Positions 2,637 through 28,423 of a DNA stretch of 29,867 bases are shown one piece after another (position 1 is the first letter of the stretch; each line of letters starts with the position of its first letter). A model generated the notes under the pieces. It was not told where the DNA came from, did no database searches, and saw only the letters and a list, made by a program, of their open reading frames with translations. Both the position numbers and the translations under genes were made by a program. Source of the stretch: a virus; the IMG/VR virus record IMGVR_UViG_3300045931_000522, positions 1 through 29,867 of that record, one strand, 5' to 3'.

Positions 2637-4075
2637 CGCGTGCCCTCCTGTGGCTGGCAGGTCAGCGTCACGGCTCCAGGCACACTGGGTACCGTACCAG
2701 TACACGTCATCGCCCCTGGCTGTGGCGGCTGCGGCGGGACAGGCTGGCGGTCACTGCGGCAGTGGTCTGGGATCACCCCCAGCAGGCTTTCGACAACGCC
2801 AGTGACACTGACCTCTGGCGCCCCGCTGGCGATCCGTGCCTGACGGATTCTGTGTTCCATTGGCCATGGCCAATTCGGCTTATTCGTCAGCACGCCCGCT
2901 TCTACCTGGTAACACAGCCCCGGGAGGGCGGTATACACATTGGCCCCGCCCATCGCCTCGGCCAGCGAGCGTCCCTCCCTGAACCCTGGCATCGTCCACC
3001 CTGAGCCCTCCTGGTTGACGCTCGGCGTGCTTGAGACGCCCACGCAGCGCTCGCACACGTTGTCTTGCTCCGGCGTGAGCGAGCCGCTACTGCTGCGAAA
3101 CAGAAACGGCTTGACGGTCGTATGGTCACTGCCGACCAGGGCGACGACATCGCGGAACGTCATCTGTGAACCACAGTCTGCCGTCGCGAGTTGCCCCAGA
3201 CGCGCGCCCGCGCCGTTTGACAGATAGAACAGGCTCCCGAGGAGCGTGAGATTGGCGCGCATGTCCGTCTCCTGGCAGCCGTAGAACATGCGAAAGATGC
3301 CCTCGGCATCGCCCACCGTGCCCGTTTCGCGCCATGTCCCGATGACGTTTTCCCAGATCTGCCCCCGCGAGCGATAGCCACCCTGATACACGTTGTTCGG
3401 CTTACTCACGCCCTCCGGGTGGTCGTTCCATTCCCCCCAGCAGCGGCGGCAGCCACTCCCCTGCATGTCCTGGTTCGGCGCTTGCGACTGGCTGAACTCG
3501 AACAGCTTGCGCATGTTCGTGCCCCAGGCGGCACAGTCGATGCACACCTGGTCGATGCCCGGGCCACTCATACTGATGCCCAGGCTGTCGGCCTCGCCAC
3601 TGGTGCCCTCGTAGGCGATCACCCGCACGAAGCGCACATGGTTGGCGCGGGAGCGGAAGATCGCTTCTGTGCCATTGGTGCCGTTTACGCCCTCCACGCG
3701 CCACCAGTCGTTGCCGGTTTGCAGGAACACGGCGAAGCCCGTATGCTCCGCGTCTATAGTTACCTGGCCGTCGTTGAGCGCTTTGACCGTGATGGGCTTG
3801 TCGGCGGTGCCAGCCAGGGTATCTGGCGGGTCTATGGCTCCCCCTTGCGAGCGCTTATACGTGCCATCGCGCAAGAGGAGCGTCGCCCCTGGCTGCATGC
3901 GCGGCCAGGCGTCCGCCACCCGGCAGGGCGCGGTCTCGCTGCACGCGGTACCTGTGCCCGTGGGCGAGGCATACAAGACCAGGGGCGCGGTGCGGGGCGT
4001 GGGCCGCAGGAGCAGCGTGGCGAGCACGACGAGGACGAGCAGGGCGAGCAGGGCAGTGTGGGTGCGGGTTAGCAT
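2633..4075 (-). CDS. Membrane-anchored or secreted beta-helix protein
   Basis: A 480-residue protein. Residues about 7-24 are a hydrophobic signal or anchor. The next part, 'LYASPTGTG...', followed by 'LLLRDGTYK' and 'KPITVKAL', is the typical opening of right-handed parallel beta-helix proteins (pectate-lyase-like fold). Many cysteines (for example CIDC, CRRC, CERC) suggest disulphides outside the cytoplasm. The C-terminus is Pro/Gln-rich, then ends with a short Cys-containing tail. The start at 4075 overlaps the methyltransferase stop and has GGAG upstream. Such folds bind or cleave polysaccharides, but no catalytic triad can be assigned. Its place in an early leftward operon, rather than in the tail module, suggests a host-surface or auxiliary role. 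Confidence 0.75.
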   Translation of the reverse strand: MLTRTHTALLALLVLVVLATLLLRPTPRTAPLVLYASPTGTGTACSETAPCRVADAWPRMQPGATLLLRDGTYKRSQGGAIDPPDTLAGTADKPITVKALNDGQVTIDAEHTGFAVFLQTGNDWWRVEGVNGTNGTEAIFRSRANHVRFVRVIAYEGTSGEADSLGISMSGPGIDQVCIDCAAWGTNMRKLFEFSQSQAPNQDMQGSGCRRCWGEWNDHPEGVSKPNNVYQGGYRSRGQIWENVIGTWRETGTVGDAEGIFRMFYGCQETDMRANLTLLGSLFYLSNGAGARLGQLATADCGSQMTFRDVVALVGSDHTTVKPFLFRSSSGSLTPEQDNVCERCVGVSSTPSVNQEGSGWTMPGFREGRSLAEAMGGANVYTALPGLCYQVEAGVLTNKPNWPWPMEHRIRQARIASGAPEVSVTGVVESLLGVIPDHCRSDRQPVPPQPPQPGAMTCTGTVPSVPGAVTLTCQPQEGTR

Positions 4076-4665
4076 AGGGGCATCTCCAGGTGCGAGCGCA
4101 GTTGGTATCCAAGCCAGGCCGTATACGCCGGCGGAATAGACTGCCGTGCTTCCGTCTTATTCATCCACTGACAGCCCATCGCGTCGGCATAGGCCCGTTC
4201 GCCTTTGTGCATGAAGGGGAGCAACCCCCGGTGCTGACAGGGTGGCAACAGGGCAAAGAGGGGCAGCGACAGCATAAACCAGCGGTGGCGCTGCACCCGC
4301 AGCCCGAACTGCGAACCACAGAGTTGCACGTCGCAGCGCATCGGTGCTCCTGGCACATTCTCAATGACCCAGGGGACGCCGGTGTCATCAAGGAGCGCCC
4401 TGGTGGCAGGGAGCAGGTCCGGGTGTGTCTGCGGGGTGCCACGCCAGCGCGTGACGTTCGCATAGCGCTGGCAGGGGGGGCTGGCGTGGATACAATCGTA
4501 CTTCCTCCCATGCTGTGCCAGGTAGGCCAGGGCATCAGCCTGGACGAATGCATGCCCGGGATAGCGCGGTTGGGGCAGATGGTCGATGCCGGTCACGACG
4601 AACCCTGCCTGCATGTAGCCTGCGGCTGCCCCACCTGCCCCTGCAAAAAGATCAAGCAACTGCAT
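4069..4665 (-). CDS. Small DNA cytosine-C5 methyltransferase
   Basis: A 198-residue protein with the ordered motifs of C5-cytosine methyltransferases. Motif I is DLFAGAGG near the N-terminus, motif IV is SPPC (catalytic cysteine), motif VI is ENVPGA, motif VIII is QRHRWF, and a motif X-like segment near the end reads 'IPPAYTAWLGYQL'. It is much shorter than usual bacterial enzymes (300-400 residues), with a reduced target-recognition region, as in other compact phage enzymes. It probably methylates phage DNA to resist restriction. AAGGAG lies six bases before the start. No partner restriction enzyme is adjacent. Confidence 0.9.
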   Translation of the reverse strand: MQLLDLFAGAGGAAAGYMQAGFVVTGIDHLPQPRYPGHAFVQADALAYLAQHGRKYDCIHASPPCQRYANVTRWRGTPQTHPDLLPATRALLDDTGVPWVIENVPGAPMRCDVQLCGSQFGLRVQRHRWFMLSLPLFALLPPCQHRGLLPFMHKGERAYADAMGCQWMNKTEARQSIPPAYTAWLGYQLRSHLEMPLC

Positions 4666-5239: not shown

Positions 5240-5417
5240 CGTCGGTCCCTCCTATGCCGGCGCTGTGCACCAGCAGATCGATACTTGCATCCAGCGACAG
5301 GAGCACGCACGTCAGGGCCGTCCAGGTGTCGCTGCACGGCTCCTGCGCATCGCGGACGTGGGCCAGGGCATTGCCCACGTCGCAGAGTTGGTGAAAGAGG
5401 CAGAGCGCGGTGCTCAT
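5232..5417 (-). CDS. 61-residue hypothetical protein
   Basis: Starts at ATG 5415-5417 (MSTALCLFHQ) with CTGGAG upstream. It overlaps the end of the SWIM-finger gene by 4 bases (ATGA-type coupling) and the next gene by 8 bases. The sequence is helical with four cysteines, none in an obvious zinc pattern. It belongs to the compact leftward operon 2310-6673. No family recognised. Confidence 0.6.
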   Translation of the reverse strand: MSTALCLFHQLCDVGNALAHVRDAQEPCSDTWTALTCVLLSLDASIDLLVHSAGIGGTDDA

Positions 5418-6673
5418 CGTTGCTCCAGGGCGGCGAGGATATCGGTGTACCGATCCGGGTGCAAGGCGTAGCCGGTCTCCTGTGTGATCCACGCCTCGAC
5501 CGCCTCACGGGTCCGCACCTCGGGGGCCAGGACCTGCACCCTGGTCCAGATGCGCTGGCGCAAGGCCTGACTCGTGGTGGTGGGCTTCGCCGGCATGGGC
5601 TGCGCCGGCTCCTCTGGCATCTCATCCAGATCTTGCGTGAACGCCTCGCTCAACGCCCCGGTCCGCAGCACCGCATCAATCGTGGCGGACTTCTGGGCCA
5701 TCTTCACCGCCTTGTTAATGTCGCCATTATCCTGACTCACCCGACGGGCACCGCGCCCTTCACCCACCATTTCGCCGCTCCGCGTGAGCAGGTGGCAGAC
5801 GTAACAGAGGGTGCCCTCGGGCTTGCCGAGCATCGTCCAGGTGGCGTCATCCTGGGTAAAGGTCGCGTGTAACTGAAAGAGACCGAGGAACTTCTCACTG
5901 CCGGCTTTGCTGAGCGTGGGCCTGGTCTCACGGCCGCCGATCTTGAGTGAATAGTAATCGGTGCCCTCCTGGAGCTGCGTCTGGAGAAAGCGTTTCACGA
6001 CCTGGCGTTGCTCGGCCCAGGCCCGCATCGAGAGTTCGAGCGTGCGGGCATCGAGGGAGGGCAGCAGCACCGGGCCAGGCAGCGGACGCGGGGCCGGCGG
6101 GACCACTGGCGCGTCCAGGACGGCCACAGGGGCGTGCTCGTCATCGGGCTCAGGGATGGACGGGTCTGCGGGCATACGGGTCTCCTTGGGGGTGATGCGG
6201 GCGGCTAACCGTTCGTCCACGGTCACGGGCGGTAAGGGCAACGGCAGCGTCTCGTCATCGACGGGGTGGGCCGCGTCGTAGGCCTCGTCGATGAGCAGGT
6301 CGGCGGCGTCGCCCTCATCCGGGTGGCTGGCGCGGGCCTGTTCAGCCATGGTCCGCGCTAATTTCACGGCCACGGCATGCACACACCAGTGCGTCTGGCC
6401 CTTCTGGCTCTGCGGACACGTACAGTGAAAGCCCGTGATGTCGTAGGGCTTCGTCGAACCGTGCACGGTGGCGGTGCGCTCGTCGTGGAGCTGCACGCGG
6501 GACAAGCGCACCAGCTCCCCAGCCCGCACCAACCGCGCCGGGGCTTTCTCGCCGGCGTGCCAGTAGGGGGCACATTCCAGGCGCGTCATGGCCTGGGCCA
6601 GGGCCACGGTAAAGTGATCGCCGTACAGATCGTCCACGTCCTTGTCTACTCCGTTGGTGACTGGTAAGATCAC
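5414..6673 (-). CDS. SWIM-type zinc finger protein with conserved phage DNA-metabolism-like domain
   Basis: A 419-residue protein, first gene of the leftward operon. It starts at GTG 6671-6673 with AAGGAG seven bases upstream. Residues 84-99 form a SWIM finger (CTC, then WCVH), a motif known to bind nucleic acid or protein. After a Pro-rich linker (about 165-215), residues about 225-370 include 'GTDYYSLKIGGRETRPTLSK', 'VGEGRGARR', 'NKAVKMAQKSATIDAVLR' and 'FTQDLDE'. I recall this pattern from phage and plasmid proteins found near recombination or replication genes, but I cannot name a function with confidence. The first-gene position and the promoter at 6768-6797 suggest early expression. Confidence 0.7.
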   Translation of the reverse strand: MILPVTNGVDKDVDDLYGDHFTVALAQAMTRLECAPYWHAGEKAPARLVRAGELVRLSRVQLHDERTATVHGSTKPYDITGFHCTCPQSQKGQTHWCVHAVAVKLARTMAEQARASHPDEGDAADLLIDEAYDAAHPVDDETLPLPLPPVTVDERLAARITPKETRMPADPSIPEPDDEHAPVAVLDAPVVPPAPRPLPGPVLLPSLDARTLELSMRAWAEQRQVVKRFLQTQLQEGTDYYSLKIGGRETRPTLSKAGSEKFLGLFQLHATFTQDDATWTMLGKPEGTLCYVCHLLTRSGEMVGEGRGARRVSQDNGDINKAVKMAQKSATIDAVLRTGALSEAFTQDLDEMPEEPAQPMPAKPTTTSQALRQRIWTRVQVLAPEVRTREAVEAWITQETGYALHPDRYTDILAALEQR

Positions 6674-6767
6674 GTCTATTCTCCTTGAGGGTCTCTTGAG
6701 GGAATCGGGCAGGCCAGCGAAACCGTGGTGGGGAGCGCTGGCCTGTCGTGTTTGGACATCATCCTTT

Positions 6768-6809: not shown

Positions 6810-7844
6810 TTACAACTCTTGCCGTTGCTTCTGGATGTCGAGGAACCGAGCTGCTTCACGGACGCAGGCCGTGATGTCCTGTCGCAGCTCGTCCCCACTG
6901 AACCGGATAATGTGCCAGCCCAGTGCCTCGATCTCTCGTTGTCGTTGGCGATCCCGCGTAAAGGCGTTCCGGTCGCTATGGTAGGTATAGCCGTCCAGTT
7001 CGATGCCGACCTGGTACCGCGGGAAGGCAAAGTCGATGCGATAGGCACCATTTTTGATCGGCTGCTGGGACACCAGGGGATAGAGCAGGTGCAGACTCTG
7101 ACTGCGCCATTCTTCGGCAAACATGGCCTCGAGTGGCGAATCAAAGGTCTCGGGAAAGACATCCCAGCCTAACTCGGCAATGACCTCTTTCAAGGCGGCC
7201 ACAGGACCCTCCTCGCAGACCTGCGCCTCACAGGCAAAATAGGGAAACCAGAGTTCGTAGAGCGAATCGAAGACCACCTCATCTGGCTCTTCAGTGGCCA
7301 GTTCAGGCCGTTCCATCTGCGTCCAAAAATCGCCGCGGGCAAAGCGGACGGCGACACGCTTGCCTAACGCTTTCGCGTACCCGAGTTCGAAGAGCGTTCC
7401 ATAGCAATCCGGCCGATCAATCCAGGCGAATATCAGGTCTGCCTGCGCGATCGCTTGCAAGCATAACCGCGTCACGCGCTGCCGCGTCGTCGGGCGATCG
7501 CCGCCATGGGATGCCCCAGGCATCTCCCCAGGACACACCCCATGGACGTAGGCCAGCGGGCCGCCATGTCCGCCCCACGTATCGCTGAGATCGGTAAAAA
7601 ATGGCCCGACATAATGGAAGCGATCAAACACCGCGCGTGGAAGCATGGGCCAGGCCGTATGTCTGGTCAGCCACTCCTGCATCCACGGGGCATAGGCCAT
7701 CCCTTCGAGTCCGGCAACGATGTCGAGGCGCCAGTCATGGACGCCCTTATTCAAGCACGGGCGTATCTTGCCTGCGAGATATATACTGAGGCCAACACTG
7801 TCCATAGAACTATCCTGCTGTGCTGTGCTAGACTTACGGGGCAT
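6810..7844 (-). CDS. Deoxyribosyltransferase-like domain fused to VSR/DUF559-like nuclease
   Basis: A 344-residue protein. The start at 7844 (MPRKSS) has AGGAGG ten bases upstream; an upstream in-frame start would run into the repeat array and is rejected. Residues about 20-170 look like the nucleoside 2-deoxyribosyltransferase/DUF4406 fold: YLAG (22-25), then DLIFAWIDRPDCYG and GTLFELGYAKALGK with a candidate catalytic Glu153. Residues about 235-340 match very-short-patch-repair/DUF559-type PD-(D/E)XK nucleases: Asp271, then the IELDG motif (Glu282, Asp284) with a following His289 and 'LGWHIIRFSGDEL'. Known families: the first cleaves or swaps N-glycosidic bonds, the second nicks DNA. The combination suggests base-targeting or nucleotide-triggered DNA damage, possibly defence or inter-phage competition. 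Its GC looks lower than that of its neighbours. Confidence 0.75.
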   Translation of the reverse strand: MPRKSSTAQQDSSMDSVGLSIYLAGKIRPCLNKGVHDWRLDIVAGLEGMAYAPWMQEWLTRHTAWPMLPRAVFDRFHYVGPFFTDLSDTWGGHGGPLAYVHGVCPGEMPGASHGGDRPTTRQRVTRLCLQAIAQADLIFAWIDRPDCYGTLFELGYAKALGKRVAVRFARGDFWTQMERPELATEEPDEVVFDSLYELWFPYFACEAQVCEEGPVAALKEVIAELGWDVFPETFDSPLEAMFAEEWRSQSLHLLYPLVSQQPIKNGAYRIDFAFPRYQVGIELDGYTYHSDRNAFTRDRQRQREIEALGWHIIRFSGDELRQDITACVREAARFLDIQKQRQEL

Positions 7845-7878
7845 AGTCGGGTAACCTCCTGTTATCCCTATGTGTTCT

Positions 7879-7933
7879 GGCGAGAGGTGTTGGTTGGCGC
7901 CGGCCCTCTCGCCGTCCTCTTCGGTCCACATAA
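7879..7933 (-). promoter_or_regulatory. 5' hairpin leader of the fusion nuclease gene
   Basis: Perfect 9-bp stem: 7879-7887 (GGCGAGAGG) with 7905-7913 (CCTCTCGCC). Read on the minus strand it lies 24 bases before the AGGAGG and after a weak -10 candidate, TTATGT (7928-7933). The same GGCGAGAGG arm is in the hairpin before the HNH gene at 13950-14546, so the two leaders appear related. Confidence 0.6.
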
Positions 7934-7957: not shown

Positions 7958-8137
7958 TGGCAATGTTGGCAATGTGGCAATCTTCACTAACGACGTAGAC
8001 TTCAAAAAATCGAGTTGGCAATCTTCACTAACGACGTAGACTTTTTGGTGGCACCCTTGGCACCCTTCATGTCCTTGCTGAAGATTGCCAACATTGCCAA
8101 CATTGCCAAGTCTGCCAACCTTGCCACCATTGCCAAC
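7958..8137. repeat. Iteron array, candidate replication origin
   Basis: Six tandem 9-base units of ATTGCCAAC type at exact 9-base spacing (8084-8137). Facing them in inverse orientation are TGGCAATGT units at 7958 and 7967, TGGCAATCT at 7975 and 8016, and two TGGCACCCT units (8049, 8058). A 28-base direct repeat (7975-8002 and 8016-8043) carries TGGCAATCTTC, and its inverse GAAGATTGCCA is at 8080-8090. The array directly abuts the primase-helicase gene. Dense repeats of a TTGGCA core beside a replication gene are the usual sign of an initiator-binding origin. No separate AT-rich melting region is obvious beyond the run at 8003-8010. Confidence 0.65.
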
Positions 8138-9930
8138 TACTCATCGTCCTCCTCTTCCATCCCTGGATAGCGGTCCCATGGTTCAAATTGTGGCAACCGC
8201 CAATACCAGAGATTTTTCTCTCGATCTTTACTGCTGAGAACGCCGAGTGCCGCTTTGGCGCGATTGAGCGTCCGCTCGGGAATGCCCAGCGCCTCGGCGG
8301 CCGCGGTGACCACCGTTGCCGGGTGCGGCCCATCCCGCAAATAGTCCTTGAGCCATTGCATCGCATTCTGACGCTGATGCTGGCGCTTGTTCGGCTGGAT
8401 GGCCGCCAGGCTATCCGCGTCGAGTTCGCAGACGCCGCACCACCGAAAGACATCATCGAGCAACTGAAACGTTTGGGATTTGCCAAACGGCGCGAGGGAG
8501 TTCTTGCTCTGGGCGATGACCCTGATGGTGGGATCATCAGGCGATTCGCCCAGCGCCAGGACCGAGCGGGCCGTGGCCGTGAAGTCGATACTGCCCTGGC
8601 CGCGGTACATGGCCTTGCCGCCCCCGCTCTTATTCCAGTGGCGGATGACCACCATGGCGCAGTGCTGGCGTTCGGCCACGAGCCCGAGCTGCCGCATGAG
8701 GGGCCGCACTTCATTGGCGCGGTGCATGTCCACCTCGGCGCCGAGGAAGGCGGAGAGCGGGTCCAGGATCACCAGGCGTGCCTTAAAATCCCGGACGGCC
8801 TCTTCCAGTAAGGTGAGATTCGCCATGGAGAACGGATGCATCTCCTGCTCATCGGCGGTCCAGCCCAGCACCGCCTTGATATGCTGCAGATCCGCGCCCA
8901 TCTTGGCGGCCCGGGGCACTAAGGTATCCCCATAGCCGTCCTCCGCCGTGATATAGAGGGTGGTAGCCGGATCACGCAGCCCGCCCATGATCTGCCCATT
9001 GGAGGCTGGTAAGCCGGTGCCGAGCGAGAGGGCTGTGGCAATAGCGAGCAGGAGGTAGGTCTTCCCTAAGCCTGGATCGCCCTCAAGAATGGTGAGCTTC
9101 CCGGTGGGAATATACGGATGCCAGAGCCAGTCGATGTGCTCGATCGGAATATCCGCAAAGGCCACGACCACCATGTGCGGGGCGGTGAGCACTGGCTTGG
9201 CATGGGCCGTGAAGGCAATCAGTTCCTCCTTCGTGTGCCCTGCAGCAAACCAGTCGGTGACATCGCCGCGCTCGGGCAATCCAGGCAGCTCGACACGGTG
9301 TAAGCGCTGCACGTACCCTGCCAGGCGCGTGGCAACCAGGTCCGCATGGTGGCGGCCGGCGGCATCGTTATCCGGCAGCAGAATGACGAGCGCATTCTTG
9401 AGGGCTACCGAGTAACTATCGTCCCACTTGCCGGCGCCCATGGGATTGGAGGTCGCGACGAAGCCATGCCGCCGCAGCGTCTCGACATCCTTTTCCCCTT
9501 CCACAAGATACACGGGCATACTGGCACTAATCGCCTTGAGGACTTCCGGCAAGCGATAGAGGACAGGCGTAATACCCTTCAGATCGTGAATCCACTTTCC
9601 AGGATGGACGGGATCGGGCCGGCGTTGAAAAAACCTCTTCTGGGCGCCAGCCGCACGCACGGCCTGAAACAACAGATGGCCACTGGCGTCATGGTAGGTG
9701 TAGAGAGCTTGGTACTGGGCCTCTCGCGGTGTCCGGTCGAGGTGGAGGGCATCAAAGAGGACTTTGCGATCACACCCGGCAAAACAATGAAAACAAATCT
9801 GGCCGTCCTCTTCCCACAGGTGTAACGACGTATCCGACTCGCCCTGATGCACCGGACACTTGGCCCGCCAGCCCCCTTTATCGGTATGCGCACCCTCACA
9901 TTGCTGGGCAATTTGGGCGAGGCTTGGCAT
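8137..9930 (-). CDS. Primase-helicase: CHC2 zinc finger, TOPRIM and RepA-type ATPase
   Basis: A 597-residue replication protein. Residues about 25-53 form a CHC2-type zinc finger (CPVH, then CFHCFAGC). Residues about 138-230 are a TOPRIM domain with VEGEKD (Glu144) and PDNDAAG (Asp187/Asp189). Residues about 275-470 are a RecA-fold helicase with Walker A GDPGLGKT (284-291), Walker B RLVILD (385-390) and 'VIRHWNKSG'. The C-terminus (about 525-580) looks like a winged helix ('GIPERTLNRAKAALGV') that may bind DNA. AAGGA precedes the start by nine bases. It probably acts at the iterons that abut its 3' end. Fused primase-helicases of this type are typical of phages and satellite elements. Confidence 0.92.
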   Translation of the reverse strand: MPSLAQIAQQCEGAHTDKGGWRAKCPVHQGESDTSLHLWEEDGQICFHCFAGCDRKVLFDALHLDRTPREAQYQALYTYHDASGHLLFQAVRAAGAQKRFFQRRPDPVHPGKWIHDLKGITPVLYRLPEVLKAISASMPVYLVEGEKDVETLRRHGFVATSNPMGAGKWDDSYSVALKNALVILLPDNDAAGRHHADLVATRLAGYVQRLHRVELPGLPERGDVTDWFAAGHTKEELIAFTAHAKPVLTAPHMVVVAFADIPIEHIDWLWHPYIPTGKLTILEGDPGLGKTYLLLAIATALSLGTGLPASNGQIMGGLRDPATTLYITAEDGYGDTLVPRAAKMGADLQHIKAVLGWTADEQEMHPFSMANLTLLEEAVRDFKARLVILDPLSAFLGAEVDMHRANEVRPLMRQLGLVAERQHCAMVVIRHWNKSGGGKAMYRGQGSIDFTATARSVLALGESPDDPTIRVIAQSKNSLAPFGKSQTFQLLDDVFRWCGVCELDADSLAAIQPNKRQHQRQNAMQWLKDYLRDGPHPATVVTAAAEALGIPERTLNRAKAALGVLSSKDREKNLWYWRLPQFEPWDRYPGMEEEDDE

Positions 9931-13914: not shown

Positions 13915-13971
13915 TTACTGGTAGCGGGGCTGGTACGTCGTGCCCAGCTTCACGGTGAGCATGGCGGCAAT
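13915..13971 (-). pseudogene. Displaced 3' end of a SWIM-finger gene
   Basis: In the minus-strand frame ending with TAA at 13915-13917, about 19 residues (reading ...[17 protein letters not shown]) align with the last 19 residues of the SWIM protein at 14622-15026 (...AVWLTIKLGATYKPSYN), with about ten identities and no gap. The fragment has no start of its own and overlaps the HNH stop. It is best explained as the original gene end, separated from its body by the HNH insertion. Confidence 0.7.
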
Positions 13972-14546
13972 GGCTCTTCCTCGGGCAGATGTGTCCAGGT
14001 GCGACGCTCGATGATGTGGTCAATCGTGCTCTTATGCACGCCAAATTGTGCGGCGATTGTTGTGCGACGTTTATCGTATTGGTAGATGCGGCGGATTTCT
14101 TGCACTTGATCATCTGTAAGTTTGGCGCTGGCGTGTCGCTCTCCGCGTACCTGATATTCAGGATGTGTCGCTCGAAGTTGCTTGTGTATCTCTGAGCCAA
14201 GATAGCCGAGATGTCCTTTGGCTTTGGCATCCTGCACATTGTCATTCGGGGTGCCAGCCCATAGATGGTGAGGATTGACGCAGGTTTTGACATCACAACG
14301 ATGACAGACATACAGGCCAGGCAACAGTTCACCATAGGTCATGATATAGATAAAACGATGTGCACGAATGCCCTGACGGTGTATATGAAAATTGCCATAT
14401 CCGGATGAGAGGCTGGCTTGCCAGAGCCAACAACAGGCTGTGCAGGTGGCCCCATGGCCACAACGCGACACCTTGCTCCAGAAGTGCGCGAGCAGTTTCG
14501 TGGTATCGGAGAGGTCGAGTTTCCGTCTAGAATAGGTGCCAGCCAT
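13950..14546 (-). CDS. HNH homing endonuclease inserted in a SWIM gene
   Basis: A 198-residue protein. The start at 14546 (MAGTYS) is preferred for AAAGGA ten bases upstream. It carries the HNH_3 pattern: [14 protein letters not shown], then [15 protein letters not shown], then '[20 protein letters not shown]' with the catalytic His region, and [11 protein letters not shown]-terminal NUMOD-type helix-turn-helix follows (about 140-185, '[19 protein letters not shown]'), which binds the target. The gene carries its own -10 box and hairpin upstream. Its 3' end overlaps the displaced SWIM-gene end. Same family as the gene at 27704-28330. Confidence 0.88.
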
Positions 14547-14581
14547 GGCCGCGTATCCTTTCATACGGGGTGATGGTCAGC

Positions 14582-14630
14582 AGGGCGAGGGGATTGCCGT
14601 CCTCTCGCCTTGCGTTATTCCCTAATTATA
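14582..14630 (-). promoter_or_regulatory. Promoter -10 and 5' hairpin of the HNH cassette
   Basis: On the minus strand TATAAT (14625-14630), inside the end of the SWIM gene, is followed 13 bases later by a 12-bp hairpin (14582-14593 with 14600-14611, two G-U pairs) with loop CGGCAA. One arm contains GGCGAGAGG, identical to the arm before the fusion nuclease gene at 6810-7844. Transcripts would start with this hairpin near their 5' end. Confidence 0.6.
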
Positions 14631-15202: not shown

Positions 15203-15418
15203 ATGCAGCCTATTGGTGATCGTATACGTATCGAACGAGAACGCTACGGCATGAGCCAGGCCGAGCTTGCCAGGCGGATCGAGATTAGCAAGACGGCGAT
15301 GAATGATATTGAACGAGGGAGAACCGCGAACCCTGGCGTGCTGCATGTGGTGGCGATTGCAGACACCTTGCATCTGAGTGTCGATACCTTGCTTGGTCGG
15401 GAGGTCTCCCATGTATAG
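15203..15418 (+). CDS. XRE-family repressor
   Basis: A 71-residue protein. The start at 15203 has AAGGAGG six bases upstream. Nearly the whole protein is an HTH_3 domain: 'IGDRIRIERERYGMSQAELA', 'ISKTAMNDIERGR' and 'VVAIADTLHLSVDTLLG'. It is the first gene after a consensus promoter whose -35 lies in an inverted repeat, so it probably represses itself and the leftward genes. Its stop overlaps the next gene's ATG, coupling its level to that of the GIY-YIG-like protein. Confidence 0.9.
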   Translation: MQPIGDRIRIERERYGMSQAELARRIEISKTAMNDIERGRTANPGVLHVVAIADTLHLSVDTLLGREVSHV

Positions 15419-15980
15419 CGGTGGAACGATCTATGCCATTGCGGCAGAGGGGACAACGCTCGTCAAGATTGGGTCAACGACCACAGCCGTTGACAAGCGG
15501 CTAAAGAGTCTACAAACAGGGCAGCCATTCCCCTTGTCTGTCCTCGCTGCTATCCCTGTCGATGGCGACGTGCTACGCATTGAACGGCAAGTGCATGCCT
15601 TTCTGGCCGAGGAACGGCGACGAGGAGAGTGGTTTGACATTGCCCTCGATGGTGAGTCACTTGCTGCCCTGGTCGTGCGTGCTGTGCAATTCGTGCAGCA
15701 GCAACTGGAGGAGGAACATCCGCCCCACAATCGACCATGGCCCAAGTGGCTCGGGAACCAACTCCGCAAAGCCCGTATTGATAAATCGCTGAGTCAGCAA
15801 GAGTTATCCGCCCGTACTGGCTTAAGCCAGAAGCATCTCAGTGCCCTGGAATGTGATCAGATGATGCCCAAGTGGCCCACGATGGTAAAATTGGCCTTAG
15901 AGTTGGATATTGACTTGAACGCCCTGGCCTGGGCATGGTCTCGCTTGCCAGCGGAGGATGCGGCGGTGCCCCATGCCTGA
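15411..15980 (+). CDS. GIY-YIG-like (MUG113/T5orf172) domain fused to XRE helix-turn-helix
   Basis: A 189-residue protein. The start at 15411 overlaps the previous stop. Residues about 5-85 match the MUG113/T5orf172 branch of GIY-YIG nucleases: 'IYAIAAEGTTLVKIGSTT', 'RLKSLQTGQPFPLSVLAAIP' and 'ERQVHAFLAEERRRGEWFDI'. Residues about 115-180 are a second XRE-type HTH ('LRKARIDKSLSQQELSARTG'). Known proteins of this kind are nuclease-like domains of uncertain activity, often found in phages and fused to DNA-binding modules. The fusion suggests a site-directed DNA nicking or regulatory enzyme. Translational coupling to the small repressor is notable. Confidence 0.85.
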   Translation: MYSGGTIYAIAAEGTTLVKIGSTTTAVDKRLKSLQTGQPFPLSVLAAIPVDGDVLRIERQVHAFLAEERRRGEWFDIALDGESLAALVVRAVQFVQQQLEEEHPPHNRPWPKWLGNQLRKARIDKSLSQQELSARTGLSQKHLSALECDQMMPKWPTMVKLALELDIDLNALAWAWSRLPAEDAAVPHA

Positions 15981-17159: not shown

Positions 17160-18713
17160 ATGGCCACCCTGCCCTTTCCCGTCACCCCCGGCGTGCAGCG
17201 CCTCGCCCGCGTCATGCTCGAGCGCCGCCAGGCCGCTGACCGCCTGCGGCAGTTCCAGCCGCTGCCCAAACAACTGCCCTTCATCCGCGCCGTCCTCACC
17301 GACGCGGCGCCGTGGGAGCACTGGTACTGCGCGGCGAATCGCGCCGGCAAGAGTGCCGCCGGGGCCTACTGCGGGGCCACGCTGGCGCGCTTCGGGCCGG
17401 ACGATCCCCGGCCGGCCATCGGTCCGTCCGCCGTGGTCTATGACCGCGCGACGTCCGGGTGGGTGGTGGGCCCCGATTTCCCGACCCTGCGTGACGTGCT
17501 CATGCCGACCTATTTTGACAACGGCTATCTCTCGCCCACGCAGGACATCGGCCCGTTCATCCCGGCGAGTGAGATTGCGCATTGGAGCTGGGACAGCCAG
17601 GTGCTCAAGCTGAAAAATGGGTCGCTCCTGGGCTTTAAGTCGAACGAACAGGACACCGTGAAATTCGCCGCCGCCGGGAAGGATTGGGTGCACTTCGACG
17701 AAGAGCCCAAGCGCACCGGGTATGAGGAAGTGACGCTGCGCGTCGCGGGTGGGCGCCACCTGCGCATCTTCGGCACGGCCACGCTGTTGCCGCCGGAAGG
17801 CGTTGTGGGCGGTATTAGCTGGATTTATGACGACATCATCCAGCCGTGGCAAGCGCGCCAGCGGACCGATGTCGCGGTGTACGGCGCGTCCATCTACGAT
17901 AACCCCTACATCCTGCCCGAAGAGATTGCGCGGCTCGAAGCCCGCTACCCGGTGGGCTCGCTGCAACGGCGCATCCGGCTGGAAGGCGAGTGGCTGCCGG
18001 GGATGACGGGCGTGCCGGTGTACGGCTCCTTTGAACGTGAAGTCCATGTGAAACGACAGCCCGCGTTATCCCCGAATCGGCCCTTATTATTCGCCCTGGA
18101 CTTCAATGTTGATCCGTTTGTGGGCATTGTGGGACAACAGGACCGCACACGTTTCTCCATCGTGCGAGAGTTCGTCTTAGAGCCTGGCTCTATTCCGCAG
18201 ATGGTAGAGGCTTTCCGCAGTGCCTATCCAAGTCATGCACACGAAATATGGCTCTACGGCGACGCCACAGGTGGCGCGCGGCATGTGCAGGAAGGCAAAA
18301 GTGATTGGCGGGTGGTGTTAGAGTACTTCAAAACCTATCCGAGTCCCATTAAGTTGCGTATACCCGACGCCAATCCGCCGGTGCATGCGCGCATTAACGC
18401 CGTCAATATGGCGCTGATGGACGAATTTGGGGCGTCGCGGTTGTATATTGACCCTGCCTGTGTCGAACTCATTGCTGATCTTGAACGGGTTATTAGTGAT
18501 GGCCGTGGTGGCATTCTGAAGAGCTACAGCCAACGCGACCCCTACAGTAAACGTACGCATTTATCGGACGCACTGGGGTACCTCATCGCCCACGCCGCGC
18601 CGGTGGGATCGGCCTCGCTTGCCGGCGTCCGGCGGCGCCAACAGATCCCACGTCCCGCATATGGCAATCAGGTTCCAGGGAGGACCTCACAGGCTATCGC
18701 GCATCGCAGGTAA
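17160..18713 (+). CDS. terL: Terminase large subunit
   Basis: A 517-residue packaging motor. The ATPase has Walker A CAANRAGKS (57-65) and Walker B with Asp180-Glu181 in 'DWVHFDEEP'. The C-terminal RNase-H-like nuclease has acidic residues at Asp314 ('FALDFNVDP'), Asp368 ('LYGDATGG') and Asp470 ('HLSDALGYL'). It cuts concatemers and pumps DNA through the portal at 19568-21679. The stretch from about 18040 to 18590 is less GC-rich, with more TTA/TTG-type codons than the first half, suggesting replacement next to the HNH gene whose end overlaps this gene by 20 bases. Confidence 0.95.
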   Translation: MATLPFPVTPGVQRLARVMLERRQAADRLRQFQPLPKQLPFIRAVLTDAAPWEHWYCAANRAGKSAAGAYCGATLARFGPDDPRPAIGPSAVVYDRATSGWVVGPDFPTLRDVLMPTYFDNGYLSPTQDIGPFIPASEIAHWSWDSQVLKLKNGSLLGFKSNEQDTVKFAAAGKDWVHFDEEPKRTGYEEVTLRVAGGRHLRIFGTATLLPPEGVVGGISWIYDDIIQPWQARQRTDVAVYGASIYDNPYILPEEIARLEARYPVGSLQRRIRLEGEWLPGMTGVPVYGSFEREVHVKRQPALSPNRPLLFALDFNVDPFVGIVGQQDRTRFSIVREFVLEPGSIPQMVEAFRSAYPSHAHEIWLYGDATGGARHVQEGKSDWRVVLEYFKTYPSPIKLRIPDANPPVHARINAVNMALMDEFGASRLYIDPACVELIADLERVISDGRGGILKSYSQRDPYSKRTHLSDALGYLIAHAAPVGSASLAGVRRRQQIPRPAYGNQVPGRTSQAIAHRR

Positions 18714-19254
18714 GGAGCCATGGTTGCACAGGGCCTGGAATGGGCCGAACCCATTTCTTGCGGTTGCATGAGTGGCAGGAAGCTACGACGTTCCAGAGGG
18801 TGTGGTTGCCACCATCGATAATCGGTGTGATGTGGTCAATGCACAGGATGTGGGTGCCGTGATGACACTCTGCACATTCCGGCTTGTAGTACGGACAATA
18901 GGCGCAGACCCCATGGGCCATGGTGAGAACAAACACGCGTTGGCGTGCGGTAAAATCCCGCCGAGTAACGCGTTTATGGCGTGCACGACGTTGTTGTTGC
19001 GCATTGCGAGCGGCTTCAGGGTGGCGTTTTGCCGAGGCTTTTTTGATGGCTTTCCGCTCGGGGGTTGTATTCAAGACAAGGATGTCATCGCGGTTGGCGT
19101 AGTAGTACGTCAGGCCCCGCTGGCGGCGATCCGCCAGGTGGCGTACGTAATTACGGCGATTGGATGCTTTGGTAGCTTCAGGATGAGCGGCACGCCATTG
19201 TCTCGCATAGCGGCGGCCGCGCGCACGACGCTTCTCAGGGTCTTTGTACGGCAT
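18694..19254 (-). CDS. HNH homing endonuclease between terminase and portal
   Basis: A 186-residue protein. The start at 19254 has GGAGGT eight bases upstream. It begins MPYKDPEKRR like the partial gene at 1-211, with a long basic N-terminal region that may bind DNA. The HNH core is near the end: CAYC and CAEC zinc-binding pairs, 'LCIDHITPIIDGGNHTLWN' with the DH pair, and 'SCHSCNRKKW'. It is antisense to the packaging genes and overlaps the terL end. It has a structured leader with a compensatory change relative to copy 1 (245-296) and its own TATAAT upstream. Confidence 0.9.
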   Translation of the reverse strand: MPYKDPEKRRARGRRYARQWRAAHPEATKASNRRNYVRHLADRRQRGLTYYYANRDDILVLNTTPERKAIKKASAKRHPEAARNAQQQRRARHKRVTRRDFTARQRVFVLTMAHGVCAYCPYYKPECAECHHGTHILCIDHITPIIDGGNHTLWNVVASCHSCNRKKWVRPIPGPVQPWLLTCDAR

Positions 19255-24959: not shown

Positions 24960-25907
24960 ATGCCCCATGATACAACATGTCCGATTTGTGGTACAGCCAT
25001 GCGTGTTCCTGATCGTACTACACGTGATCAGGCGCATTATTGTTCACGGGCGTGTGCCAATAAGGCACGGCGCAAACATATCCCGCTCGAAGGGACGTGT
25101 AAAGTGTGTGGCGCTGTCTTTGTCTACGTGGAAAATCCTGCATTGCCCGGTCGCGGCCAGTATTGTAGTCGTGCCTGTGCCAATGAGGGCCAACGGGTGC
25201 ATCGTACTGCATTGTGTGTGCACTGTGGCACCACGTTTCCCCTGTTGTACAAAACGCCGCCAAAGCCCGGCAGTGGGCAATATTGTTCGATGACCTGTGC
25301 GAGGGCTGCACGGACGGAGAAAGTACGGGTGGATCGTATCTGCCTCGTCTGTGAGCAACCATTCTGGGTCTACGAAAGTCAGTTGCGCCGGGAAGGGCCT
25401 GGGCAAAAAGGTGTCTTTTGCTCGCGCGCATGTGCGGTAAAAGGCCGCCAGAAGAACACCTATAACAATACCACGCGCCGGCGGACGGCGACGTATCAGT
25501 ATCATCGCCGTGGGTATGTTATGGCCTATGCCCCAGATCATCCAAGTGTGCAGGAACGGATCAAGCGTGGTAGTCGGCATTACTATGTGATGGAGCACCG
25601 GCTTGTAATGGAACAGGCCCTCGGACGATATTTGCATCCCTGGGAGAATGTGCATCACAAGAATGGCGTGCGCCATGATAATCGTCTGGAGAATCTCGAA
25701 GTGTGGGTGAAAGCGCAACCTGCAGGGCAGACGAATGAGTATCTCGATTATGTGCTCATCCTCTTGCGGCAATTGCGAGAGGCAGGGATACGCCCGGAGG
25801 GATGGCCAGGCACGCAAGCTCCAGGGCCGTTTGTTGTCGCCATACCCGCACCTGTCCATCCTGAGCAACTCGGCTTTCTGCTGCCCCAACCGGAGGGCAC
25901 GCACTAG
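24960..25907 (+). CDS. HNH homing endonuclease with four zinc knuckles
   Basis: A 315-residue protein starting at ATG 24960 with AAAGGAGG upstream. The N-terminal about 160 residues are four copies of a zinc-finger unit: CxxC, about 15-25 residues, then C-S-x-x-C (Cys7/10 and the CSRAC, CSRAC, CSMTC and CSRAC pairs). A basic linker follows. The HNH core is at about 200-260: '[20 protein letters not shown]', then [21 protein letters not shown] with the catalytic His. The zinc array probably binds a long DNA target. Its position between capsid and the next structural gene fits intronless homing. Confidence 0.9.
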
Positions 25908-27703: not shown

Positions 27704-28330
27704 TCAGTTGTCAGGGACATGTCGCCAGGTCTTGCGGTGGATGATGGAGGAAATGGCGCTATGCGATACGCCGAACATGTCGCCAATGGCTTGTTGACTC
27801 AAGGTCCCATTGCGCTGTAGATGACGGATTTCCCTGACCTGCTCCGCAGTCAGTTTGGCGAATGTGGTCTTTTCTCCGCGAGGGACTCTTTCAGGATGAA
27901 GGCGAGCGCCACTCTTTGCACCACGGGGGATACGTTCTGGGCGCGTATGCACCCAATGACGGCCTTTGCGCACCATGTCTTGCATATTGTCGGTGCGTGT
28001 GCCAAGGAACAGGTGGACAGGGCGGACACACGCTGGTGTATCGCAGCGGTGGAGCACCCACAATCCATCAGGAATAGGGCCAAAGGTCAGTTCATAGGCG
28101 AGGCGATGGACCAGGATGGCTTTCGAGTCAACAGTTATGGTGCCATAGCCAGCCGTACTGTGCGAGCCCATCCACAGCCAGCAGGTGTCTGTAATCTTGA
28201 CCCGCGCCCACAAGCGTTCGACAAGGCTCATATGTTTGAGCCTGGCAAAGTGGGAAAGTTTCCACGCCCGACCCGGCGCGCATACCTCTTGGCAACCGCA
28301 GGAACACCATCTATCTTTGTTCTCAGCCAT
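27704..28330 (-). CDS. HNH homing endonuclease with C-terminal HTH
   Basis: A 208-residue protein. The start at 28330 has GAGGT nine bases upstream. The N-terminus has a Cys cluster (CSCGCQEVC) that may bind zinc. The HNH_3 core has 'CWLWMGSHSTAGYGTI', 'LVHRLAYELTFGPIPDGLWV' and 'LHRCDTPACVRPVHLFLGT', then DNMQDMVRKG. The last about 60 residues are a NUMOD-type HTH ('QQAIGDMFGVSHSAISSIIH'). Same family as the HNH gene at 13950-14546. It is antisense to the structural genes and has its own -10 box (28418-28423) and 14-bp hairpin upstream. Confidence 0.9.
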   Translation of the reverse strand: MAENKDRWCSCGCQEVCAPGRAWKLSHFARLKHMSLVERLWARVKITDTCWLWMGSHSTAGYGTITVDSKAILVHRLAYELTFGPIPDGLWVLHRCDTPACVRPVHLFLGTRTDNMQDMVRKGRHWVHTRPERIPRGAKSGARLHPERVPRGEKTTFAKLTAEQVREIRHLQRNGTLSQQAIGDMFGVSHSAISSIIHRKTWRHVPDN

Positions 28331-28365: not shown

Positions 28366-28423
28366 GAGCCCTGGTGGTGTATCAGCACTGCCAGGGCTCG
28401 TTTGTGTAGATGGATAAATTGTA
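28366..28423 (-). promoter_or_regulatory. -10 box and 5' hairpin of the HNH gene
   Basis: A stem of about 14 bp starts from GAGCCCTGG (28366-28374) with CCAGGGCTC (28391-28399) and extends inward with G-U pairs to a 6-base loop (28380-28385). On the minus strand TACAAT (28418-28423), preceded by GG, is 18 bases upstream. The layout -10, hairpin, Shine-Dalgarno, ATG matches the other leftward HNH cassettes. Confidence 0.6.

Follow-up and report, generated by a model that had tools for sequence, protein, structure and literature searches.

MilB, BcmB and BlsM are N-glycosidases of CMP and hydroxymethyl-CMP. MilB carries a substrate-gate motif, F-L-(G/A)-(G/A)-P-F-(R/K), and its role in antibiotic biosynthesis is linked to ThyA-type genes (PMC4081090). 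DNPH1 (RCL), a 2'-deoxynucleoside 5'-phosphate N-hydrolase, is a small single-domain sanitiser of the nucleotide pool whose catalytic triad consists of Y24, D80 and the nucleophile E104 (PMC10603095). In AbiJ-NTD1 proteins, a nucleoside deoxyribosyltransferase (NDT)-like domain is the proposed DNA-acting effector; its partner there is an Abi helical domain rather than a nuclease, and the context is host defence (PMC3710099). A survey of 21,191 viral proteomes found viral DrHyd domains only of the ADP-ribosyl-cyclase type, and reported phage fusions of SLOG, not of NDT-like domains, to HNH nucleases (PMC9503650). PMC6083498 lists six homing-endonuclease families, four of which are represented among the nucleases considered below: HNH, GIY-YIG, PD-(D/E)XK and EDxHD.

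Here we analyze a gene of an uncultivated virus whose product joins an NDT-like domain to a predicted nuclease. The gene lies in a 29.9-kb record (29,867 nucleotides; hereafter the window) that also encodes a terminase, a head-tail adaptor and a major head protein; the best match of the terminase to known phages is 28% identical. Like the SLOG-HNH phage fusions and the DrHyd effectors, the protein attaches a Rossmannoid domain of the TIR-DrHyd-SLOG kind to a phage nuclease, but the domain is NDT-like and not SLOG. The original prediction knew of no described system with such a pairing, and in those parts of the open-licence literature that were covered we likewise found no description of an NDT domain paired with an HNH, GIY-YIG, homing endonuclease or other nuclease domain. 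The components are known; their combination, and its recurrence, appear undescribed.

The fused gene and its two predicted domains

The gene (6810–7844, minus strand) encodes 344 amino acids in one frame, open from 7844 to 6810, and its ATG start lies 10 nt past an AGGAGG ribosome-binding site that can be read directly from the sequence (7855–7860, minus strand). As predicted, this single frame holds both domains, PF05014 and MTES_1575/DUF559, each above its Pfam cut-off, and YLAGK (residues 22–26), GTLFELGYAKALGK with Glu153, and Asp271, Glu282, Asp284 and His289 are all at the residues that had been named. The leader contains a hairpin with a 9-bp stem (7879–7913, minus strand; arms GGCGAGAGG / CCTCTCGCC). 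It had been said to match that of an HNH gene (13950–14564), which holds for the stem, a near-copy of which precedes the HNH gene at 14584–14609, but not for the loop, which differs between the two hairpins. These are the sole two stems of that kind within the window. Hairpins with perfect arms are found at 28366–28399, preceding the HNH gene at 27704–28330, and at 6710–6745, between the fusion gene and a SWIM-like gene (5414–6673).

The two-domain fusion is real. Since the same NDT-like plus DUF559/MTES_1575 fusion recurs in at least ten other records, from phage contigs, Streptomyces genomes and a Streptomyces plasmid, neither a sequencing error nor an assembly that fused two genes can account for it; the homologues are fused too. 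Full-length fused homologues, which include proteins from a Streptomyces canus plasmid, Streptomyces prunicolor and several viral contigs, share 36–40% identity with the window protein and, together with the Pfam scores and the fold, rule out a chance domain match. A scan of genome contigs with the single window sequence gave no match, and an alignment-based scan led to S. prunicolor, one of 3 among 394 Streptomyces genomes with a fused relative.

The N-terminal domain (residues 19–205; 7230–7790, minus strand) was assigned from PF05014 and PF15891, from HMM comparison with the PDB and from an AF2 model. PF05014 (Nuc_deoxyrib_tr) reached 31.3 bits (E 2.5e-7), above its cut-off of 28.8, and all seven of the first homologues match both PF05014 and PF15891. 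A profile built from 34 relatives placed BcmB (5.6e-7), MilB (9.5e-6) and BlsM at the head of the PDB matches, with deoxyribosyltransferases and DNPH1 after them. Modelled in isolation with AF2, the domain reached a pTM of 0.77, and in Foldseek DNPH1, at the top, MilB/BcmB and deoxyribosyltransferases made up nearly all of its best 36 matches; full-domain TM-scores to DNPH1 and MilB were modest, at about 0.4–0.57. Thus, the NDT-like reading of the original prediction stands at the level of the superfamily, while a classical nucleoside deoxyribosyltransferase salvage enzyme is, by the HMM and Foldseek rankings, less likely than a monophosphate hydrolase nearer to MilB/BcmB and DNPH1. The GTPase EngA, the top PDB match of the full-length model, is a Rossmann-like artefact that arises when both domains are aligned together (rmsd 17 Å) and fades once the N-terminal domain alone is used. 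No full-length viral fold match was recognized in BFVD, where the matches were mainly to nuclease domains.

The predicted active site can be traced through the family. The GTxxEiG motif, shared with MilB and BcmB along with the fold, aligns Glu153 (codon 7386–7388, minus strand) with MilB Glu103 and marks it as the predicted nucleophile; it stands at the start of the helix after strand 3, as in the superfamily, with Tyr22 (codon 7779–7781, minus strand) after strand 1, and Asp136 (codon 7437–7439, minus strand). A weak alignment (E-value 0.39, residues 2–97) of human DNPH1 with a relative that lacks the insert described below, L034, puts the Tyr, Asp and Glu of the family onto Tyr24, Asp80 and Glu104 of DNPH1. 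Among 39 family members Tyr22, Arg39 and Glu153 are invariant, so that the catalytic acid proposed originally is present throughout; Lys26 is kept in 38 (one Arg), and the Asp136 position is D in 32, E in 6 and Q in 1. A conserved Trp corresponds to residue 199 in the longer alignments, and a shortened alignment (A10) shifts the register to residue 174. As judged from sequence and model, the N-terminal half thus belongs to the NDT/nucleotide N-glycosidase superfamily, and its predicted active site of Tyr22, Asp136 and Glu153 is intact.

On the substrate side the domain departs from its relatives. Its phosphate-side motif is YLAGKI...DWR, in place of the phosphate/base-gate motif of MilB and of the YFCGSI of DNPH1, and we therefore did not file the protein as an orthologue of either; given this difference, the substrate may be something other than a nucleoside monophosphate. 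The phage domain also has an extra HG-rich insert (residues 87–116; 7497–7586, minus strand; AF2 pLDDT below 50) with a degenerate HG...HG motif, in which His93 and His101 are kept in 37 and 38 of the 39 members. Many relatives conserve a metal-site-like CDHGCxHGxxxHG motif in this insert.

The C-terminal half (residues 235–344; 6813–7142, minus strand) is predicted to be a nuclease of the homing-endonuclease type (EDxHD/Vsr-like) that retains its acidic residues. PF18741 (MTES_1575) scored 51.7 bits against a cut-off of 38.2 (E 9.6e-14) and PF04480 (DUF559) 38.3 against 20.6. The meaningful Foldseek match was the catalytic domain of I-Bth0305I (3r3p; TM(target) 0.81), which refines the PD-(D/E)XK core of the VSR/DUF559 type proposed originally to the EDxHD fold. 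The window domain shares with I-Bth0305I, DUF559/MTES_1575 and Vsr the D, E-x-D, H and D residues, and a motif check showed Asp271, Glu282, Asp284, His289 and Asp298 to be retained in ten fused proteins. Unlike I-Bth0305I, it is joined to a glycosidase-like domain, and it is called homing-type from its fold and residues.

One glycosidase-like domain with varying nucleases

We searched viral contigs with motifs lying inside the glycosidase domain, removed repeats and added the homologues found earlier, which gave 42 distinct proteins. A nuclease is fused to 35 of them, at either end: an HNH domain in 19 (17 N-terminal, 2 C-terminal), a C-terminal EDxHD-type domain in 11, a GIY-YIG (MUG113/T5orf172) domain in 3 (2 N-terminal, 1 C-terminal) and the PD-(D/E)XK protein phrog_21138, which matches phage Holliday-junction-resolvase and endonuclease families, in 2. 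The remaining seven (L005, L006, L013, L039, L040, L045 and L048) consist of the glycosidase domain alone. Partner domains were confirmed by Pfam and PHROGs in representatives and assigned to the other members through sequence similarity to these.

A tree of the glycosidase domain, poorly resolved with 17 of its 39 inner branches open, contains at least 14 changes of architecture label; a single ancestral EDxHD fusion is compatible with it (p-AU 0.129, not rejected). Pairwise comparisons point to exchange more directly. The glycosidase domains of L036 and L038 are 64% identical, and their N-terminal nucleases are unrelated, one being PD-(D/E)XK and the other HNH; conversely, L036 and L034 share a PD-(D/E)XK module at 63% identity, and only 25% in the glycosidase domain. 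The HNH domain of L028 is matched at 65% identity in Synechococcus phage S-H1, and the match stops short of the glycosidase. From these identities we infer that both modules travel. In L034 (859–1785) the glycosidase is nested in the phrog_21138 protein, with the tail AARSARFEFGE after it, and in L036 (341–1501) it follows a complete phrog_21138 protein, with AARSARFEHGE before it; the same nuclease has thus two different insertion points. Taken together, the sequence comparisons indicate that it is the glycosidase domain that stays constant in this family, with an interchangeable nuclease (HNH, GIY-YIG, EDxHD, another PD-(D/E)XK, or none). The suggested link of the gene to mobile endonucleases is supported.

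With four members as tblastn queries, the glycosidase domain was found in none of 50,697 annotated phage records; for L028, the matches listed covered at most the C-terminal part with the HNH domain. The domain has therefore so far been hidden in uncultivated phages.

Surroundings of the gene

In the window, the fusion gene comes after a Toprim plus AAA_25 primase-helicase gene on the same strand (8137–9930, minus; AAA_25 3.2e-29, phrog_239 1.5e-34). A phrog_239-type primase/helicase is held by 20 of 38 records of the family and, in 17 of these 20, is no more than 2.5 kb away from the glycosidase gene. On contigs of at least 14 kb, the two were this close in 12 of 15 cases against 3.4 expected, and none of 20,000 random placements reached 12. 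Most of the stand-alone members, read from their sequences, likewise adjoin primase or helicase genes. The 135 same-strand neighbours classified by Pfam and PHROG are mainly primases, DnaB-type/AAA_25 helicases, Sak4/RecT annealing proteins, SSB and ERCC4-family nucleases; none of the best 25 neighbour families is a capsid, tail or terminase family. Neither in the window nor among these 135 neighbour proteins, mainly of replication and recombination, was there an adjacent defence or signal-producing partner gene. Judged by gene order, the glycosidase-fusion gene is part of the replication module of the phage, next to the primase/helicase.

The Streptomyces chromosomal copies do not stand beside a primase of the window type. 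The copy on the S. canus plasmid (L003, 3508–5469) is some 5 kb away from a Gp37/Gp68 plus TcmP pair, with an HNH and a NUDIX gene close by.

Unlike the MilB gene, the phage family shows no linkage to ThyA-type genes: PF00303 was found in 0 of 38 records, many of them fragments, with the positive controls detected. On this ground we rejected a connection with bases made by ThyA, hydroxymethylated ones included. Elsewhere in the window, the gene at 4069–4665 (minus strand) encodes a C5-cytosine methyltransferase-like protein of 198 aa, with PF00145 over its first 24 residues and phrog_363 at 8e-34, and is possibly a short or split methyltransferase gene.

Two further features of the window deserve mention. 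The repeat-rich segment 7958–8110, between the primase-helicase and the fusion gene, holds a 28-bp direct repeat, TGGCAATCTTCACTAACGACGTAGACTT, at 7975–8002 and 8016–8043, and inverted TTGCCAACATTGCC units; it could be an operator or a replication origin. The density of homing-type nucleases in these 30 kb is striking: four HNH genes (13950–14564, 18694–19239, 24960–25907 and 27704–28330) and a T5orf172/MUG113 GIY-YIG plus HTH gene (15378–15980).

Possible functions of the pairing

We lean towards the reading that the gene, a member of the phage replication module, encodes a nucleotide N-glycosidase, predicted to be active, onto which homing-type nucleases have been grafted repeatedly. By analogy with DNPH1 and MilB, the glycosidase would act during phage replication and cleave the base–sugar bond of a (deoxy)nucleoside 5'-monophosphate; Glu153 would attack C1', so that the base is released and a covalent sugar-phosphate intermediate is left on Glu153, as in DNPH1. 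With less assurance, we propose the repeated grafting itself, onto a conserved phage glycosidase gene, so that the homing-type nucleases would make specific DNA breaks by which the locus spreads or co-infecting phages are harmed, while the glycosidase would ensure that the fusion gene still serves its phage. There is no need for both activities to work in sequence on one substrate. At the window locus itself we found neither a homing event nor an insertion site, nor any allele lacking the nuclease. The original prediction had the protein sense or alter nucleotides and then cut DNA, as in defence, for which there is so far no support: the neighbours are replication genes, and a tight two-step mechanism is disfavoured because the nuclease partner is swappable among four families or missing. 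That the glycosidase and whichever nuclease is tethered to it form one machine, which would take over or destroy nucleic acid in replication and has recruited four unrelated folds, is possible but doubtful.

We consider it unlikely that the protein is a weapon with two steps or warheads, whose nuclease would cut host or competitor DNA and whose glycosidase would strip bases from, or degrade, the resulting nucleotides or damaged ends, with the host starved or repair and recycling blocked. Such a weapon would agree with the DNA-cutting domain in 35 of the 42 members, with no other kind of partner found, with the joint conservation of both predicted active sites, and with the proposal that NDT-like domains of Abi proteins act as toxins that remove DNA bases (PMC3710099). 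However, stand-alone glycosidase members persist beside replication genes, defence and toxin genes are not the neighbours, and the varying nuclease type and attachment end argue against fixed channelling. A single binding domain combined with one of many possible nucleases is also the pattern of a sensor with its effectors, and SLOG-HNH phage fusions have been proposed as ADP-ribose sensors (PMC9503650); yet a nuclease switched on by a nucleotide signal bound to the NDT-like domain, as with SLOG/TIR relatives or SAVED, is quite unlikely here, as a pure sensor would not need the Glu153 and Tyr22 that are invariant in 39 of 39 members, no signal-making gene is adjacent, and the nucleases sit at either end. 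The catalytic domains of homing endonucleases are usually paired with DNA-binding modules; Pfam detected no NUMOD or similar DNA-recognition domain in the window protein, and the NDT-like domain could serve as that part. The partners do come from four of the six classical homing-endonuclease families (PMC6083498), but seven copies stand alone without a nuclease and the conserved residues are catalytic rather than basic and DNA-binding, so that an NDT-like domain turned recognition arm, in place of the usual NUMOD-type modules, seems slightly less likely again. Least probable, and by a long way from being likely, is an NAD-consuming effector of the sort proposed for DrHyd/TIR proteins, with the nuclease as a second warhead: the domain is of the same TIR-DrHyd-SLOG clade, but the closest structures act on nucleoside monophosphates, the surveyed viral DrHyd domains are only of the ADP-ribosyl-cyclase type (PMC9503650), and no defence context is seen here.

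A nucleotide N-glycosidase domain that repeatedly acquires four unrelated homing-endonuclease-type nucleases is a pattern for which we found no description. It offers a testable case of homing nucleases becoming domesticated by, or hitchhiking on, a useful gene. The glycosidase family itself may point to new nucleotide or DNA-base chemistry in phage replication, and is a possible source of N-glycosidases with new specificity.
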